Made by a program: the position numbers and the translations under genes. Positions 12,530-18,691 of a stretch of 50,295 nt of DNA are shown here, piece by piece; position 1 is the first letter of the stretch, and each line of letters starts with the position of its first letter. The stretch is from Candidatus Sulfomarinibacter kjeldsenii (lineage in GTDB: Bacteria > Acidobacteriota > Thermoanaerobaculia > Thermoanaerobaculales > Sulfomarinibacteraceae): positions 1 through 50,295 of the forward strand of contig JACXWA010000121.1 of the NCBI GenBank assembly GCA_014764485.1, given 5' to 3'. The notes beneath the pieces were generated by a model that searched no databases, was not told where the DNA came from, and saw nothing but the letters and a program-made list of their open reading frames with translations.

Positions 12530-12602
12530 CGGTCGATATCATAAACCCATCGGCGGGTTCCCGTCGGGATACTCGATACCCGGTCCCCCGAAAACTCATA
12601 AA

Positions 12603-12664
12603 CCCACAGATCACACAGATGGATTTATCCGTGTGGATCTGTGTTGATCTGTGTCATCTGTGGG
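12603..12664. repeat. Palindromic element built from iterated (CACAGAT/ATCTGTG) motifs
   Basis: Left arm cccacagatcacacagat (12603-12620), right arm atctgtgtcatctgtggg (12647-12664), 17/18 complementary; inner ggat/atcc and extra gtgtggatctgtgttg. Confidence 0.75.
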
Positions 12665-12705
12665 CAGTCTTGATCGAATATTGATGGGTGACGAAGAAAC
12701 GGAAA

Positions 12706-13284
12706 TCAGTCGTCGTCTTCTCCGAACACCTGTGCAGAAAACGTGGAGATATTCGTATCTGGATGGCGCCAGCAACCGGGTTCGAGCCCGGCTTTACGAC
12801 AGGTGTGATCGAGGAAGGTCTCCCGATCCCAACCAAACTCTGTTGCCACCTGCGGCAGGAGGAGGCCGCGCGCCAGACCGCGCTCGAGCAGAATCCCATC
12901 CCGGCCGACGACTACGTCACGGAAATCGACGCGTTGGAGGGGCGTGAGAGCAGAGATCTCGATGTGGGTCGCGAGCATTTCGTCTGCCTGCAAAGGGTCA
13001 AAACGAGGGTCCTCGAAGGCGGCGGCGATCGCGTTGTCCCGGACGGCTCGCCACAACGGTGCGACGCCGATAACATGACCGATACAACCTCGAAGCCGAC
13101 CTTGAATTTTGAGAGTTACAAAGGCGCCTCGCGGTGCCAGGAGTTTTTGGTCGCTCGGGTCGGGAGAGGGGAGGGGTATTCCGTCAAGGCGGCATTGGAT
13201 CGTTTCGCGTGCCAACGCGAGCAAAAAACGGGCTGCTTTCCCGTCGATCGTGTACTCAGGGGAATTCCAATTCATCTCTAACAA
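12706..13284 (-). CDS. AMMECR1 domain protein
   Basis: GAFVTLKIQGRLRGCIGHV (LRGCIG motif), EDPRFDPL, EISALTPLQRV, LPQVATEFGWDRETFLDHTCRKAGL. Start may be 13275. Confidence 0.88.
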   Translation of the reverse strand: MLEMNWNSPEYTIDGKAARFLLALARETIQCRLDGIPLPSPDPSDQKLLAPRGAFVTLKIQGRLRGCIGHVIGVAPLWRAVRDNAIAAAFEDPRFDPLQADEMLATHIEISALTPLQRVDFRDVVVGRDGILLERGLARGLLLPQVATEFGWDRETFLDHTCRKAGLEPGCWRHPDTNISTFSAQVFGEDDD

Positions 13285-13301
13285 GATGGTATCGTGACCC
13301 C

Positions 13302-14564
13302 GTGATTGTCAAACTCCCCTTTGCCCGCGACCGGCTGGCTCTGGATCTTCGCGGGTTGCGGGTTCGCGCGTTGACGCCGAGTGCCCCGCCCGGTCGCGAC
13401 GCGGGAGAACTGGTTTCCGCCGCCCTCGATCAACCGTTGGCCGGCCCTGCACTCGTCGATATGGCCCGAGGCCGTGGGTCGGTAACCGTCATCGCGCCTG
13501 ATGCGACGAGGAAGGCAAGCCTCCCTGAGGTTCTCCCAGCCGTAATCAAACGGTTGCAGCGAGCCGGAATCGATGAAGGTGCCATCACCGTTTTGATAGC
13601 CAATGGCACCCATCCCGTTGTTGGGCCGGAGGCAATTTCCTCCCTTGTTGGCCCACTGCCTGGGTCGATTCCGGTCATCGAGCACGACAGCCGAGGCTCC
13701 GATCTCGTGTGCATAGGTGATCTGCGGGAGGAACTACCGCTGCGTGTCCACCCGAGCGCCACCGAGTGCGGACTTCTGATCACCGTTGGTACCGTTCGCC
13801 ATCACTATTTCGCGGGTTTTGGCGGCGGACCGAAGATGGTTTTCCCGGGTGTAGGCGGTTACGAGGAGATTCAGGCCAACCACAGCCTGGTGCTCGATCT
13901 CTCGGGAGAACACGCCGTTCGCGATCCAGGATGTGAGCCAGGGGTGCTGGTCGGCAACCCGATCGCCGAGGAAATCAGGCGTGCGGCCTCCCTACGACCA
14001 CCGGACATCGCCATATGCCTTGTTGAAGGGCGTGAAGGCGGGGTCGCCTGGGCGGGCGCAGGACCCTGGGAGATCGCTTTTGAAACCGCCGTAGAGCGCG
14101 TCCGGATGTGGTTTGAAGTACCTCTTACAGGGGAATTCGATTTGATGGTCGCTGGTTCGGGTGGCAATCCGACGGACGCGACCCTCATCCAGGCCCACAA
14201 GGGGCTCGACGCTGCTTGCCGATTCCTCAAGCCGGGTGGCGAAATCCTGCTGGTGGCTTCTCTCGATGAGGGGCTCGGGTCTGATGAGATGGCGCCGTTC
14301 GTCGACGATCCCAACCCCGAATCAATTTTGGCGAGACTCTCGACGGGCTGGGTGCAATACGGACACACAACACTCCGAATCGTCGAGAAGACGTCACGCC
14401 ATCGCATCCATCTGCATTCGAACATCTCTCCTGAGGTTGCGACACGCTTGGGTTTCGAACCAGTTGACGACCCGGCGGTGCTCCTCAACGAGTGGAGAGA
14501 ACGGCACCCTGGTGCACAGGTTGGTGTGATGGCAGCCGGCGCGGTCTATCCACGCACACCTTGA
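13302..14564 (+). CDS. LarA-like (DUF2088) nickel-dependent lactate racemase family protein
   Basis: DATRKASLPEVL; ANGTHPVVGPE; TVRHHYFAGFGGGPKMVFPGVGGYEEIQANHS; GTG start 13302. Confidence 0.85.
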   Translation: MIVKLPFARDRLALDLRGLRVRALTPSAPPGRDAGELVSAALDQPLAGPALVDMARGRGSVTVIAPDATRKASLPEVLPAVIKRLQRAGIDEGAITVLIANGTHPVVGPEAISSLVGPLPGSIPVIEHDSRGSDLVCIGDLREELPLRVHPSATECGLLITVGTVRHHYFAGFGGGPKMVFPGVGGYEEIQANHSLVLDLSGEHAVRDPGCEPGVLVGNPIAEEIRRAASLRPPDIAICLVEGREGGVAWAGAGPWEIAFETAVERVRMWFEVPLTGEFDLMVAGSGGNPTDATLIQAHKGLDAACRFLKPGGEILLVASLDEGLGSDEMAPFVDDPNPESILARLSTGWVQYGHTTLRIVEKTSRHRIHLHSNISPEVATRLGFEPVDDPAVLLNEWRERHPGAQVGVMAAGAVYPRTP

Positions 14565-14637
14565 CTTCGATCAAGGACAGATTCGATCTCCGCTGCCACA
14601 TTGAATCCATCGGGTTGGTCCCGTGATTGGAGCAAAG

Positions 14638-14991
14638 ATGACCTCTGGACCTGAGAGAAAAGTTGAACCGCTGGCCTCGGATCGGGCGAGCGTCCTGACT
14701 GAACTGGTGGACGTAGCTCCAGGGGCAATTGTCAGTCGGGTGTTAGCGAAATCCGGTGGTGGCAACGTGACTCTGTTTGCATTTGATCAAGGGCAGGGCC
14801 TGTCGGAACACACCGCACCATTCGATGCGTTGGTCCAGGTGGTCGACGGGTGCCTGGAGTTGACCATCGGCGATGCCGAGGTGCGAGTTGGCGGCGGCCA
14901 GATTGTCCGCATGCCGGCCAATGTTCCGCACGCTCTCCACGCCGCCGAGCCGAGCCGGATGGTTCTCACGATGCTGCGGGACATGGAGTGA
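14638..14991 (+). CDS. Cupin domain protein
   Basis: Small beta-barrel: GLSEHTAPFDALVQVVDGCLELTIGDAEVRVGGGQIVRMPANVPHALHA. Confidence 0.85.
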   Translation: MTSGPERKVEPLASDRASVLTELVDVAPGAIVSRVLAKSGGGNVTLFAFDQGQGLSEHTAPFDALVQVVDGCLELTIGDAEVRVGGGQIVRMPANVPHALHAAEPSRMVLTMLRDME

Positions 14992-14994
14992 TTC

Positions 14995-15774
14995 ATGGCC
15001 GTACGTGAAGTCATCGAAATCGACGAAAAGCTCTGTGATGGATGCGGGGATTGTGTCACAGCGTGTGCCGAGGGTGCGATCGCAATCATCGATGGCAAGG
15101 CCCGCCTGATCAGCGATGTCTACTGTGACGGACTCGGAGCCTGTCTAGGTCACTGTCCACAGGGTGCCCTGAAGGTGATTCACAGGGAGGCCGAGGAATT
15201 TGACGAACAGGCGGTGGAAGATCGCCTCGTGCAACTGAGGGGGGAAAGTGGGCCCGCCCCTGCCCCGCCGCAGCTGTCTGTGGTGGGTTCACAGCCGATG
15301 ATGGGGGGAGGGGGTTGCCCGGGTTCGAGAGCGCAGATGCACCAGACAAGAGCTCCTGACCCATCTGCAGCAGGCCAAGGACCTTCATCTCAACTCCGTC
15401 ACTGGCCAGTCCAACTCCACCTGGTACCGCCGACGGCACCGTTCTTTCAGAACCAGGATGTTCTTCTGGCGGCCGACTGTGTCGCATTCGCGGTCGGAGA
15501 TTTTCATCAGCGGTTTCTCGCCGGCTCATCCCTCGCTATTGCGTGTCCCAAGCTGGACAGCAACCAGGAGGTTTATCTCCAGAAGCTGGTGAGTATGATC
15601 GACGAAGCGGAGATCAGGAGCCTCAAGGTGATGGTCATGGAGGTGCCGTGCTGTGGCGGCCTGGTGCGGTTGGTCGAGGAGGCTCTTCGGAGGGCGAAGC
15701 GCGATCTGCCGGTAGAGTGTCTGGTGGTCGGCACCCAGGGCCACATTCTCGGCGAATACCAGATCGCCGGCTGA
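14995..15774 (+). CDS. 4Fe-4S ferredoxin-domain protein
   Basis: CDGCGDCVTACAEGAI and CDGLGACLGHCPQGAL clusters, C-terminal CPKLD...EVPCCGGLVRLVEEALRRA. Confidence 0.88.
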   Translation: MAVREVIEIDEKLCDGCGDCVTACAEGAIAIIDGKARLISDVYCDGLGACLGHCPQGALKVIHREAEEFDEQAVEDRLVQLRGESGPAPAPPQLSVVGSQPMMGGGGCPGSRAQMHQTRAPDPSAAGQGPSSQLRHWPVQLHLVPPTAPFFQNQDVLLAADCVAFAVGDFHQRFLAGSSLAIACPKLDSNQEVYLQKLVSMIDEAEIRSLKVMVMEVPCCGGLVRLVEEALRRAKRDLPVECLVVGTQGHILGEYQIAG

Positions 15775-15846
15775 TACAATCGGGCAGTCGATCGGCGACC
15801 GAGAGCCAGTGGCGAGCGGTCACTGAGAGGCCCCGAGGAGGCCAGC

Positions 15847-16947
15847 ATGACGCGTCACTCCCGCGCTGTCGCCCTGGCGGCAGCGCTTCTATATGCAGGG
15901 TTCGTCGTCACTCAAGTCGCTGCAGTCGAGGATACCGAGCCCTCGTTTCGGATTGAAGAGGCGGAACTGGACCTCGGAACCATCGTCGCGGGAACTATCG
16001 CAACCGCAACATTTGTGTTCCACAACGATGGTCCGGACGACGTCCACATCATCCGCGCAAAGCCCTCTTGAGGCTGCACTCTGGCCGAGTACGACTCGGT
16101 CATCCCGGCAGGTGGGTCGGGAAAGCTTATCGCGAACATGCGGACCGCGCCCCTTCAGGACCGAAGGATCACGAAGTCGATCGCGGTCCGAACTGACGCC
16201 AAGGGTCTCCCCACCCTCAATCTACGTTTCAGCGTCGAAGTTCGAGCGCCGATCGTATTCAAACCCGACAACCGACTTGTCATCTCCACAATAGAGGGAC
16301 AGGAAACCCGTAAGCGCGTGCTCCTCCGACGGGCCGATGGTGAAGCCCTCGAAATTCTCAGTGCAGAAACGGGCGATCAAACGCTGAGGGTAGCCACTGA
16401 ACCGGTGGTCAAAAAAGAGAGAACCAACGAATACGAGGCGGGTCCGGGGGATGTGTGGCTCGAGTTGGTGCTGCCGGCGGACTCGCCGATCGGATCGAGA
16501 ACCGGAAAGCTTCGGCTTTCAACCAACGATCCCATCGCCAAGTCGTTCGAGGTTCCGTTCGCCATGCGGGTCAGGGCACTCATCGAACATCGACCAGAAG
16601 GCCTGCGCTTGTGGCCCACTCCGAGCCGCAGCGGGGATGGGTATTCTGGCTTTGTCACCCTGAACCGAAATGGTAAAGGTTTTTTCACGATCACCGGTTT
16701 CGATGTCTCGCATCCCGAGATTTTCTCTGCCGCCGTGGTGTCGGCGGAAGCGGCAAAACGTCAGACGATTCGGGTAGAGTTGGCGGAGGGTCTTGGGCCT
16801 GAGGCGATCAGCAGTACGATCGAAGGCTGGATCGAGATCAGGACCGATGATCCGATTCGCTCGAAGCTCAATGTGCCAGTGATCGTTGCTTCGAGTCGCG
16901 AAAAAACACGGCGACCATTCCAGACCCGTCGGACGGTAGGCGAGTAA
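15847..16947 (+). CDS. Exported DUF1573 (SCGCT-motif) protein with one in-frame TGA; candidate selenoprotein
   Basis: Signal peptide MTRHSRAVALAAALLYAGFVVTQVAA; ORFs 15847-16071 and 16138-16947 share a frame; continuous read ...FVFHNDGPDDVHIIRAKPS-[TGA]-GCTLAEYDSVIPAGGSGKLIANMRTAPLQD... places TGA at the first Cys of SCGCT. Confidence 0.75.
16082..16102 (+). promoter_or_regulatory. Candidate bacterial SECIS-like hairpin
   Basis: tggccgagt-acg-actcggtca: 9-bp stem (one G-U), apical loop ~20 nt 3' of TGA 16069-16071. Confidence 0.45.
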
Positions 16948-16949
16948 AG

Positions 16950-17020
16950 GTGTCTAGAGTAATGAGTGAGGAACGCCCATCCCCGAAATGGATTTCGAAG
17001 CCTGACTCCTAACCCTTGAC
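16950..17020. repeat. Third, more degenerate copy of the gagttaagag-type palindromic element
   Basis: gtgtctagagtaatgagtgagga ... cgaaatggatttcg hairpin ... gactcctaacccttgac; overlaps the 3' end of the minus-strand gene. Confidence 0.4.
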
Positions 17021-18691
17021 ATGCTTCGCCTGCATTTCCGGGGGCGCCTTCGGTTCCGTTTTCTTCACCGGCGCAGATGTCACAAACTGCCATACCGGGT
17101 TGCCATCCACCGTGTTCAGGGCCGAAGCTTCAATCTCCCTCCGGTGCGACGTGAGCAGCTCACCGAGCGAACACCCCGAGGCGGCCATGTCTAGGGCAGC
17201 GTAGGCTGAACAATCGCCACGGCTGAGATAGGCCTGCCATATGGATTCCCGGTATGCCGGCCGGTCGATGCGGAGATTACCGACACCTGCGAGACCGTCC
17301 AGGACAATTTGGAGACGCCGTCGTGCCTCTTTTCGCGTCAACATGGACTGGCGGGCGTAGGGCGTGTATGGCTTCGGCACGAGGACGTTAAACCCGGCGT
17401 GGAGGGTCCCGACCCGACCTCGTTCGCGGCCGCGGCCAACCATCATTTCCTGGACCTGGCGAAGGAGATCAACGATGCCGGTCACATCTTCATCCGTTTC
17501 GCCCGGAAGGCCAATGATGAAGTACATCTTGAGGCTATCGATCCCGCACCGGAGGGCCGTGTCGGCCGCTTCGAGGATGGCGGCGTTGGTGATCGGCTTA
17601 TTGAGTCGGCGTCGGAGCTGGTCGGTGCCAGTCTCGGGGGCGATCGTCACCGAGCGGGCGCCCGACTCGGCAAGAGGCCGCAAGATCTCTTCGCGCATCG
17701 CCGGTATCCGGAGTGAAGAGAGAGCGACCTCCAGATCACGATGGCGACACTCCTCGAGAATCTCGGCAAGCTCCGGGTGGTCACCGACTGCAGTGGCGAC
17801 GAATCCTACCCGATCTGTAATTTGTGCGATCCGTTCCACCTTCTCGAGAATTGCTTCGGAGGGGTAGCAGCGGAGACGACCGTAGTTGTAGCTGACCCAA
17901 CAATATTTACATTTTTCGGGACAACCGCGGGACATCTCTACCAGCCCGCGGCTGCGGTACTCAGTGTGCGGCGTGATGACGTGGGATGCCGGGAGCATTG
18001 CCGGGTCGGCCATGTGAGCCTCCCGTTTTTCGATCCGGCGTCGTTTCCCGTTGGGCCGGTGGTCCGCCCCGAGATGGTGGGCCGGCACGAAGTAACCGTC
18101 ACGATTCGCGAGCTCGAGCAACAATCGTCCGCGGTCTGGGTTTTCTCGGACCAGGGTGAGGAGTGGGGCCCACAGAAGCTCAGCAGACCCGAGGACGAAA
18201 ACGTCGATAACGGGTGCGAGCGGCAGAGGATTGATCGACGCCACCGCGCCTCCCAGAATCAGGAGAGGATGGCGATGGTTGCGTTGACCGCGGAGCCGCG
18301 GTATGCCGGCGGCGTCGAGGGTGGTTAGCACGTTGACTGCATCGAGCTCGAAGGAACAGCTCCAGGCGAGCACATCGAGATCGCCAAGGGCGCTCCCGGT
18401 TTCGAGGGTACGGCCAATAGCGATCGCCGGATCGGCGAAAAAGCGTTCGACGCCTACATCATCACAGGACGATGCAAGCTCCACCGCCCACTGAAACGCC
18501 AGTGAGGACATCCCGACCGAGTACGTATTCGGGTAGCCGACTCCGATTCGCAAGCCGCCGGCCGGGGTGACGTTCAGGACACGTCGCTCGGCTTCCAGAA
18601 GTTGACGATTGGCGTTATCCACTGCTAGAGGATAGTGCACGCTGTACAATGTCGCCTCGCAGTTCGTGTTAAAGGACCCCGATTTTGGCAA
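17009..18691 (-). CDS. B12-binding-domain radical SAM protein
   Basis: RGLVEMSRGCPEKCKYCWVSYNYGR (CxxxCxYC), IAPETGTDQLRRRLNKP, YFIIGLPGETDEDVTGI. Start probably slightly inside the ORF because it overlaps the divergent cmk start. Confidence 0.88.
   Translation of the reverse strand: MPKSGSFNTNCEATLYSVHYPLAVDNANRQLLEAERRVLNVTPAGGLRIGVGYPNTYSVGMSSLAFQWAVELASSCDDVGVERFFADPAIAIGRTLETGSALGDLDVLAWSCSFELDAVNVLTTLDAAGIPRLRGQRNHRHPLLILGGAVASINPLPLAPVIDVFVLGSAELLWAPLLTLVRENPDRGRLLLELANRDGYFVPAHHLGADHRPNGKRRRIEKREAHMADPAMLPASHVITPHTEYRSRGLVEMSRGCPEKCKYCWVSYNYGRLRCYPSEAILEKVERIAQITDRVGFVATAVGDHPELAEILEECRHRDLEVALSSLRIPAMREEILRPLAESGARSVTIAPETGTDQLRRRLNKPITNAAILEAADTALRCGIDSLKMYFIIGLPGETDEDVTGIVDLLRQVQEMMVGRGRERGRVGTLHAGFNVLVPKPYTPYARQSMLTRKEARRRLQIVLDGLAGVGNLRIDRPAYRESIWQAYLSRGDCSAYAALDMAASGCSLGELLTSHRREIEASALNTVDGNPVWQFVTSAPVKKTEPKAPPEMQAKHVKG

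Follow-up and report, generated by a model that had tools for sequence, protein, structure and literature searches.

Reading Frame and In-Frame TGA

The locus raised the question of whether a TGA codon inside a DUF1573 gene ends translation or is read as selenocysteine (Sec). The window, that is, the whole stretch of DNA analysed, comprises 50,295 nucleotides of a contig from Candidatus Sulfomarinibacter kjeldsenii, and the features of the locus are listed in Table 1. The ORFs at 15847-16071 and 16138-16947 were found to form one frame, and the sole interruption of this frame was the TGA at 16069-16071. Translation with readthrough gave a product with a signal-peptide-like start and the stretch RAKPS-U-GCTLAEYDSVIPAGGSGKL. 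The Pfam DUF1573 match ran across the TGA with 48.7 bits (gathering threshold 26.1). Furthermore, the TGA occupied the position of the first Cys in the CGC motif of DUF1573, giving a UGC motif in the window protein, and the aligned paralogues carried TGC or TGT at that column. The first-pass annotation had described a single frame split by one TGA at the first Cys of the motif, and both points held: the reading frame was otherwise uninterrupted, and the orthologues shared the TGA.

Table 1. Features of the DUF1573 locus and of the genes upstream of it (window coordinates).
Feature	Position	Strand	Description
LarA-like gene	13134-14564	+	Upstream; synteny kept in several relatives
Cupin gene	14623-14991	+	Upstream; synteny kept in several relatives
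4Fe-4S ferredoxin-like gene	14995-15774	+	Upstream; synteny kept in several relatives
Shine-Dalgarno-like AGGAGG	15836-15841	+	5 nt upstream of ATG 15847; from sequence
DUF1573 gene, read as Sec-containing	15847-16947	+	366 aa with readthrough; stop TAA 16945-16947; orthologues in 18 genomes
Signal-peptide-like N-terminal stretch MTRHSRAVALAAALLYAGFVVTQVAA	15847-15924	+	From sequence and low model confidence of residues 1-29; boundary estimated
DUF1573 (PF07610) domain	15949-16227	+	Residues 35-127, TGA inside
In-frame TGA read as selenocysteine	16069-16071	+	U75 of the U75-G76-C77 motif
Hairpin H1	16082-16102	+	UGGCCGAGU-ACG-ACUCGGUCA, 9 bp; loop begins 19 nt past UGA
Hairpin H2	16103-16122	+	UCCCGGC-AGGUGG-GUCGGGA; GGU-type apical loop begins 38 nt past UGA

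The readthrough of one in-frame TGA in a DUF1573 gene might be expected if UGA were reassigned to an ordinary amino acid throughout the genome. However, TGA served as a normal stop in all three genes immediately upstream (14562-14564, 14989-14991, and 15772-15774), so that code reassignment, already judged unlikely in the first-pass annotation, was excluded. In addition, the tRNA with a UCA anticodon was tRNA-Sec, and in DUF1573 proteins the in-frame TGA occurred only at the conserved Cys column. The genome-wide reassignment was thus refuted by the normal TGA stops directly upstream, and its probability is negligible.

Another explanation is that translation truly ends at the TGA and that an internal start gives rise to the remainder as a product of its own, for which the in-frame ATG at 16138, 66 nt downstream of the TGA, would be available. 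Against this, the family's most conserved segment (G76, C77, D83, V85-G89, G92, and L94) lay between the TGA and this ATG and would be lost, and the same segment carried the Sec-specific hairpins described below. The internal start is therefore considered very improbable.

Orthologues in the Host's Family

An orthologue was present in 18 of the 20 genomes of the host's family, and the two genomes without it were 65% and 83% complete. All 18 orthologues had exactly one TGA in the same alignment column and carried no TAA or TAG, so the TGA cannot be put down to chance or a sequencing error. Among the aligned family orthologues, the identity to the window copy was 32-56%; the approximately 290 residues downstream of the TGA were conserved, with 54% identity to the G004 copy. 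The Cys-type DUF1573 paralogue in the host's own genome (G000:C40) had TGC/TGT at the Sec column, and the DUF1573 copies of the sister family were likewise of the Cys type, with TGC or TGT. Across the 149 genomes of the class sample, the high-scoring Sec form was limited to the host's family, and G038 carried a distinct Sec copy. Alternation of TGA with TGC/TGT at this column, which had been suggested as a mark of Sec insertion, was therefore seen (18/18 TGA orthologues versus the paralogue and the sister family), and the random stops that would have pointed to a pseudogene were absent from all 18.

The host genome is a draft (1.78 Mb, 127 contigs, and 67% complete), and such an assembly lends some room to the idea that the gene is a pseudogene or that its TGA arose through faulty sequencing or assembly. 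This idea was refuted by the pattern across genomes. The same TGA, and no further stop, stood in 18 of 18 orthologues from separate assemblies, 30 more copies had the same codon, and the sequence past the TGA stayed conserved. A pseudogene or an error is accordingly regarded as extremely improbable.

Distribution in Acidobacteriota and Selenocysteine Machinery

Outside the host's family, 30 further TGA copies were found in other Acidobacteriota, all at exactly the U of [S/G]-U-G-C. These were the G038 copy, a true UGC copy, and 29 copies from 28 genomes of the phylum sample (396 genomes), belonging to the families f20, f21, f27, f33, f41, f43, f56, f67, f71, f76, and f80. The TGA matches in G077 and G129 were rejected, as the TGA was the genes' own stop. 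Among the matches listed, no TGA copy occurred in the 32 genomes of other phyla that were reached via Cys matches. One of the Sec copies, L174 (G450:C19:28000-30400), was a short DUF1573 protein of 179 aa with UGC and a long branch; its genome had a second TGA copy, L170, giving two DUF1573 selenoproteins in one genome.

The domain tree, for which the U was masked, comprised 48 Sec and 54 Cys rows; it has few columns and low resolution. On this tree, Sec and Cys copies were interleaved, with at least 12 state changes, and the well-supported branches forced at least three Sec/Cys changes.

The host genome contained tRNA-Sec with the UCA anticodon (76.4 bits), selA (493.6 bits), selB (343.7 bits), and selD (372.7 bits), the complete set whose absence, according to the first-pass annotation, would speak against Sec. 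Moreover, selA was present in 27 of the 28 TGA-copy genomes from the phylum search, against 253 of all 396 genomes sampled. The exception, G191 (copy L164), had a TGA-containing DUF1573 gene and a strong tRNA-Sec (70.9 bits), and no selA was found in this genome, which was scored 100% complete; perhaps a contig is missing or its SelA is divergent. In two carriers of the TGA gene, G010 and G019, which are drafts (88% and 79% complete), the search for selB gave nothing above the cut-off. A search for another selenoprotein in the host's family gave formate dehydrogenase-like genes in three genomes, all without a TGA. A scan for CUAEP radical SAM proteins returned no match, and its controls gave no signal either. 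The genomic evidence, which is indirect, suggests that SelB and the Sec-tRNA(UCA) would decode UGA 16069-16071 as Sec.

RNA Structure Downstream of the TGA

The stability of the 57 nt past the codon was compared with that of synonymous codon shuffles. The mean z was -1.59 for Sec copies (n = 48) and -0.34 for Cys copies (n = 54), with a Mann-Whitney p = 3e-7; the p-values are indicative only, since the sequences are related and kinship inflates statistical tests. Upstream of the codon, there was no excess stability over the synonymous shuffles. A perfect H1 stem of at least 7 bp, with its apical loop about 19 nt past the UGA, was present in 43 of 48 Sec copies versus 3 of 54 Cys copies, and its letters differed by clade (GAG...TCG replaced by TCG...GAG, GGG...CCG, or CGACTTT...AAAGTCG). 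H2 followed directly 3' of H1, and its loop started 38-40 nt past the UGA. The H2 stem with a G among the first two nucleotides of the loop was found in 43/48 Sec and 14/54 Cys copies, and the Gly codon in H2 was GGT in 35/48 and 8/54, respectively. Among the 31 copies that share a register, 28 cells had changed on both sides with the pair kept, while the shuffle mean was 11.0 and none of 500 shuffles was as high; sliding the stem partner abolished the pairing in these copies. Both stems exceeded the peptide-constrained expectation in Sec copies only.

Rfam gave no match in the window at gathering thresholds. According to a 2026 review (PMC13188914), the bSECIS model requires a G within the first two nucleotides of the loop and, for most elements, a spacing of 16-37 nt. 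The element was similar to this bacterial SECIS consensus in having a stable stem-loop directly past the UGA, as in bacterial selenoproteins, in the H1 spacing (19 nt), and in the GG/GU-type loop of H2, which followed the loop rule. It was different in that there were two tandem hairpins, that G was absent from the first two positions of the H1 loop, and that the H2 spacing of 38-40 nt was slightly beyond the range. Neither hairpin, therefore, fitted the standard model exactly.

Comparison of the copies points to the structured RNA just past the UGA, with its two tandem hairpins, as the guide for Sec insertion; H2 supplies the GGU-type loop, and H1 would probably set the spacing. We tentatively propose, with a confidence somewhat short of even, that this is a tandem-hairpin SECIS of a distinct bacterial class, in which a variable spacer hairpin is followed by an H2 loop of the GGU type at 38-40 nt that is read by SelB, in a lineage switching repeatedly between Sec and Cys across the phylum. 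It is also possible, at odds clearly below even, that the protein is a selenoprotein with H1 alone as its SECIS at the canonical 19 nt, and that H2 is a by-product of coding P-G-G/Q. H1 was indeed the strongest and most Sec-specific stem, and its loop lay within the published range. However, only in Sec copies did H2 exceed what synonymous shuffles predict, the GGT preference at its Gly was confined largely to those copies, and it was the H2 loop, not the H1 loop, that fitted the published loop rule. If the tandem arrangement is correct, the strictness of spacing in bacterial SECIS elements could be probed with it.

Sec insertion, as inferred in the first-pass annotation, was strongly supported by the Sec machinery, by the TGA alternating with TGC/TGT, and by the conserved downstream RNA structure. 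We consider it nearly certain that the product of 15847-16947 is a secreted DUF1573/OS_HP2-type selenoprotein, a confidence that applies to the selenoprotein reading and not to the function.

Predicted Fold and Possible Function

The AlphaFold model was confident and all-beta, with a mean pLDDT of 86.9 and low confidence for residues 1-29. In the model, U75-G76-C77 lay in the loop between strands 66-73 and 78-82. Foldseek indicated a resemblance to strings of Ig/ASH-type domains, and a sequence search of the PDB returned no significant relative. For the product, Ig-like/HYDIN-type beta domains arranged in a string are accordingly predicted, and the UGC motif would lie in a loop between two strands. 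It shares the predicted tandem Ig-like beta-sandwich with the HYDIN/ASH-type matches (ciliary central-apparatus chains and 2qsv from Porphyromonas gingivalis), whereas the full-length TM-scores were low and a shared function is not implied.

The product should be exported because its start is signal-peptide-like. The UxC pair in the loop would suit either a selenenylsulfide redox site or metal binding, as judged from sequence and model. At about even confidence, a role in the cell envelope is suggested, probably as a selenol/thiol redox site, with metal(loid) binding as the less likely option; the suggestion draws on motif and fold, and its redox part on the UxC motif.

In some genomes of the family, the DUF1573 gene lay between the larA-like/cupin/ferredoxin-like genes and cmk-rpsA, while other genomes differed. 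Since the neighbourhood differs among genomes, no functional partner is claimed. Several other observations were made in the window. Close to its C-terminus, the 4Fe-4S ferredoxin-like protein carried the conserved sequence EVPCCGGLV. A radical SAM protein at 17009-18691 (-) resembled TIGR03960 (207 bits versus a cut-off of 462); in some relatives, a TIGR03960-like gene lay between the selenoprotein gene and cmk, and in others it was absent there. The intergenic stretch 12600-12665 was rich in CACAGAT/ATCTGTG units in both orientations and had the look of a small repeat element. A scan of the window for other conserved in-frame TGAs returned mostly antisense and gene-junction noise, and no defence-system match was found.

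Comparison with Known Selenoproteins

The first-pass annotation had taken this gene for a new selenoprotein family, which was not the case. The DUF1573/OS_HP2 selenoprotein with a UGC motif has been catalogued since 2007, and an NCBIfam model for it exists (NF041425, OS_HP2_seleno). In the literature consulted, it is credited to the Olavius symbiont work of Zhang and Gladyshev (NAR 2007), OS_HP2 is listed as a pfam07610 selenoprotein in 2008 (PMC2398784), and DUF1573 with the UGC motif appears in the selenoprotein lists of reviews of 2022 and 2026 (PMC9312934 and PMC13188914). PMC13188914 does not mention Acidobacteriota, and a tool paper reports a test on an Acidobacteriota genome with three known selenoproteins. 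The spread across the phylum, the repeated Sec/Cys exchange, and the tandem-hairpin SECIS seem to be new with respect to the literature examined, which was not a full review.

Under the standard code, the gene reads as a short fragment and a separate downstream ORF in all these genomes. Its recognition brings dozens more selenoproteins to Acidobacteriota, about which the selenoprotein literature examined says little, and a domain of unknown function, expected to be secreted, would have a catalytic-type residue. In addition, the Sec/Cys pairs within one phylum offer a natural set of comparisons on why Sec is retained.

Compared with Cys-type DUF1573 proteins (G000:C40 and records from Bacteroidota and Planctomycetota), the window protein had the same domain, with their CGC in the same columns, but those proteins used TGC/TGT instead of TGA at this codon and, as a rule, were without the downstream hairpins. 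Compared by description with OS_HP2 (pfam07610, NF041425), it agreed in its domain and in the U-G-C motif, where Sec takes the place of the first Cys. OS_HP2, however, came from a deltaproteobacterial symbiont of Olavius, whereas the window protein is from Acidobacteriota, is 366 aa long with further beta domains, and scored 63.1 bits with NF041425, below the curated cut-off of 100.
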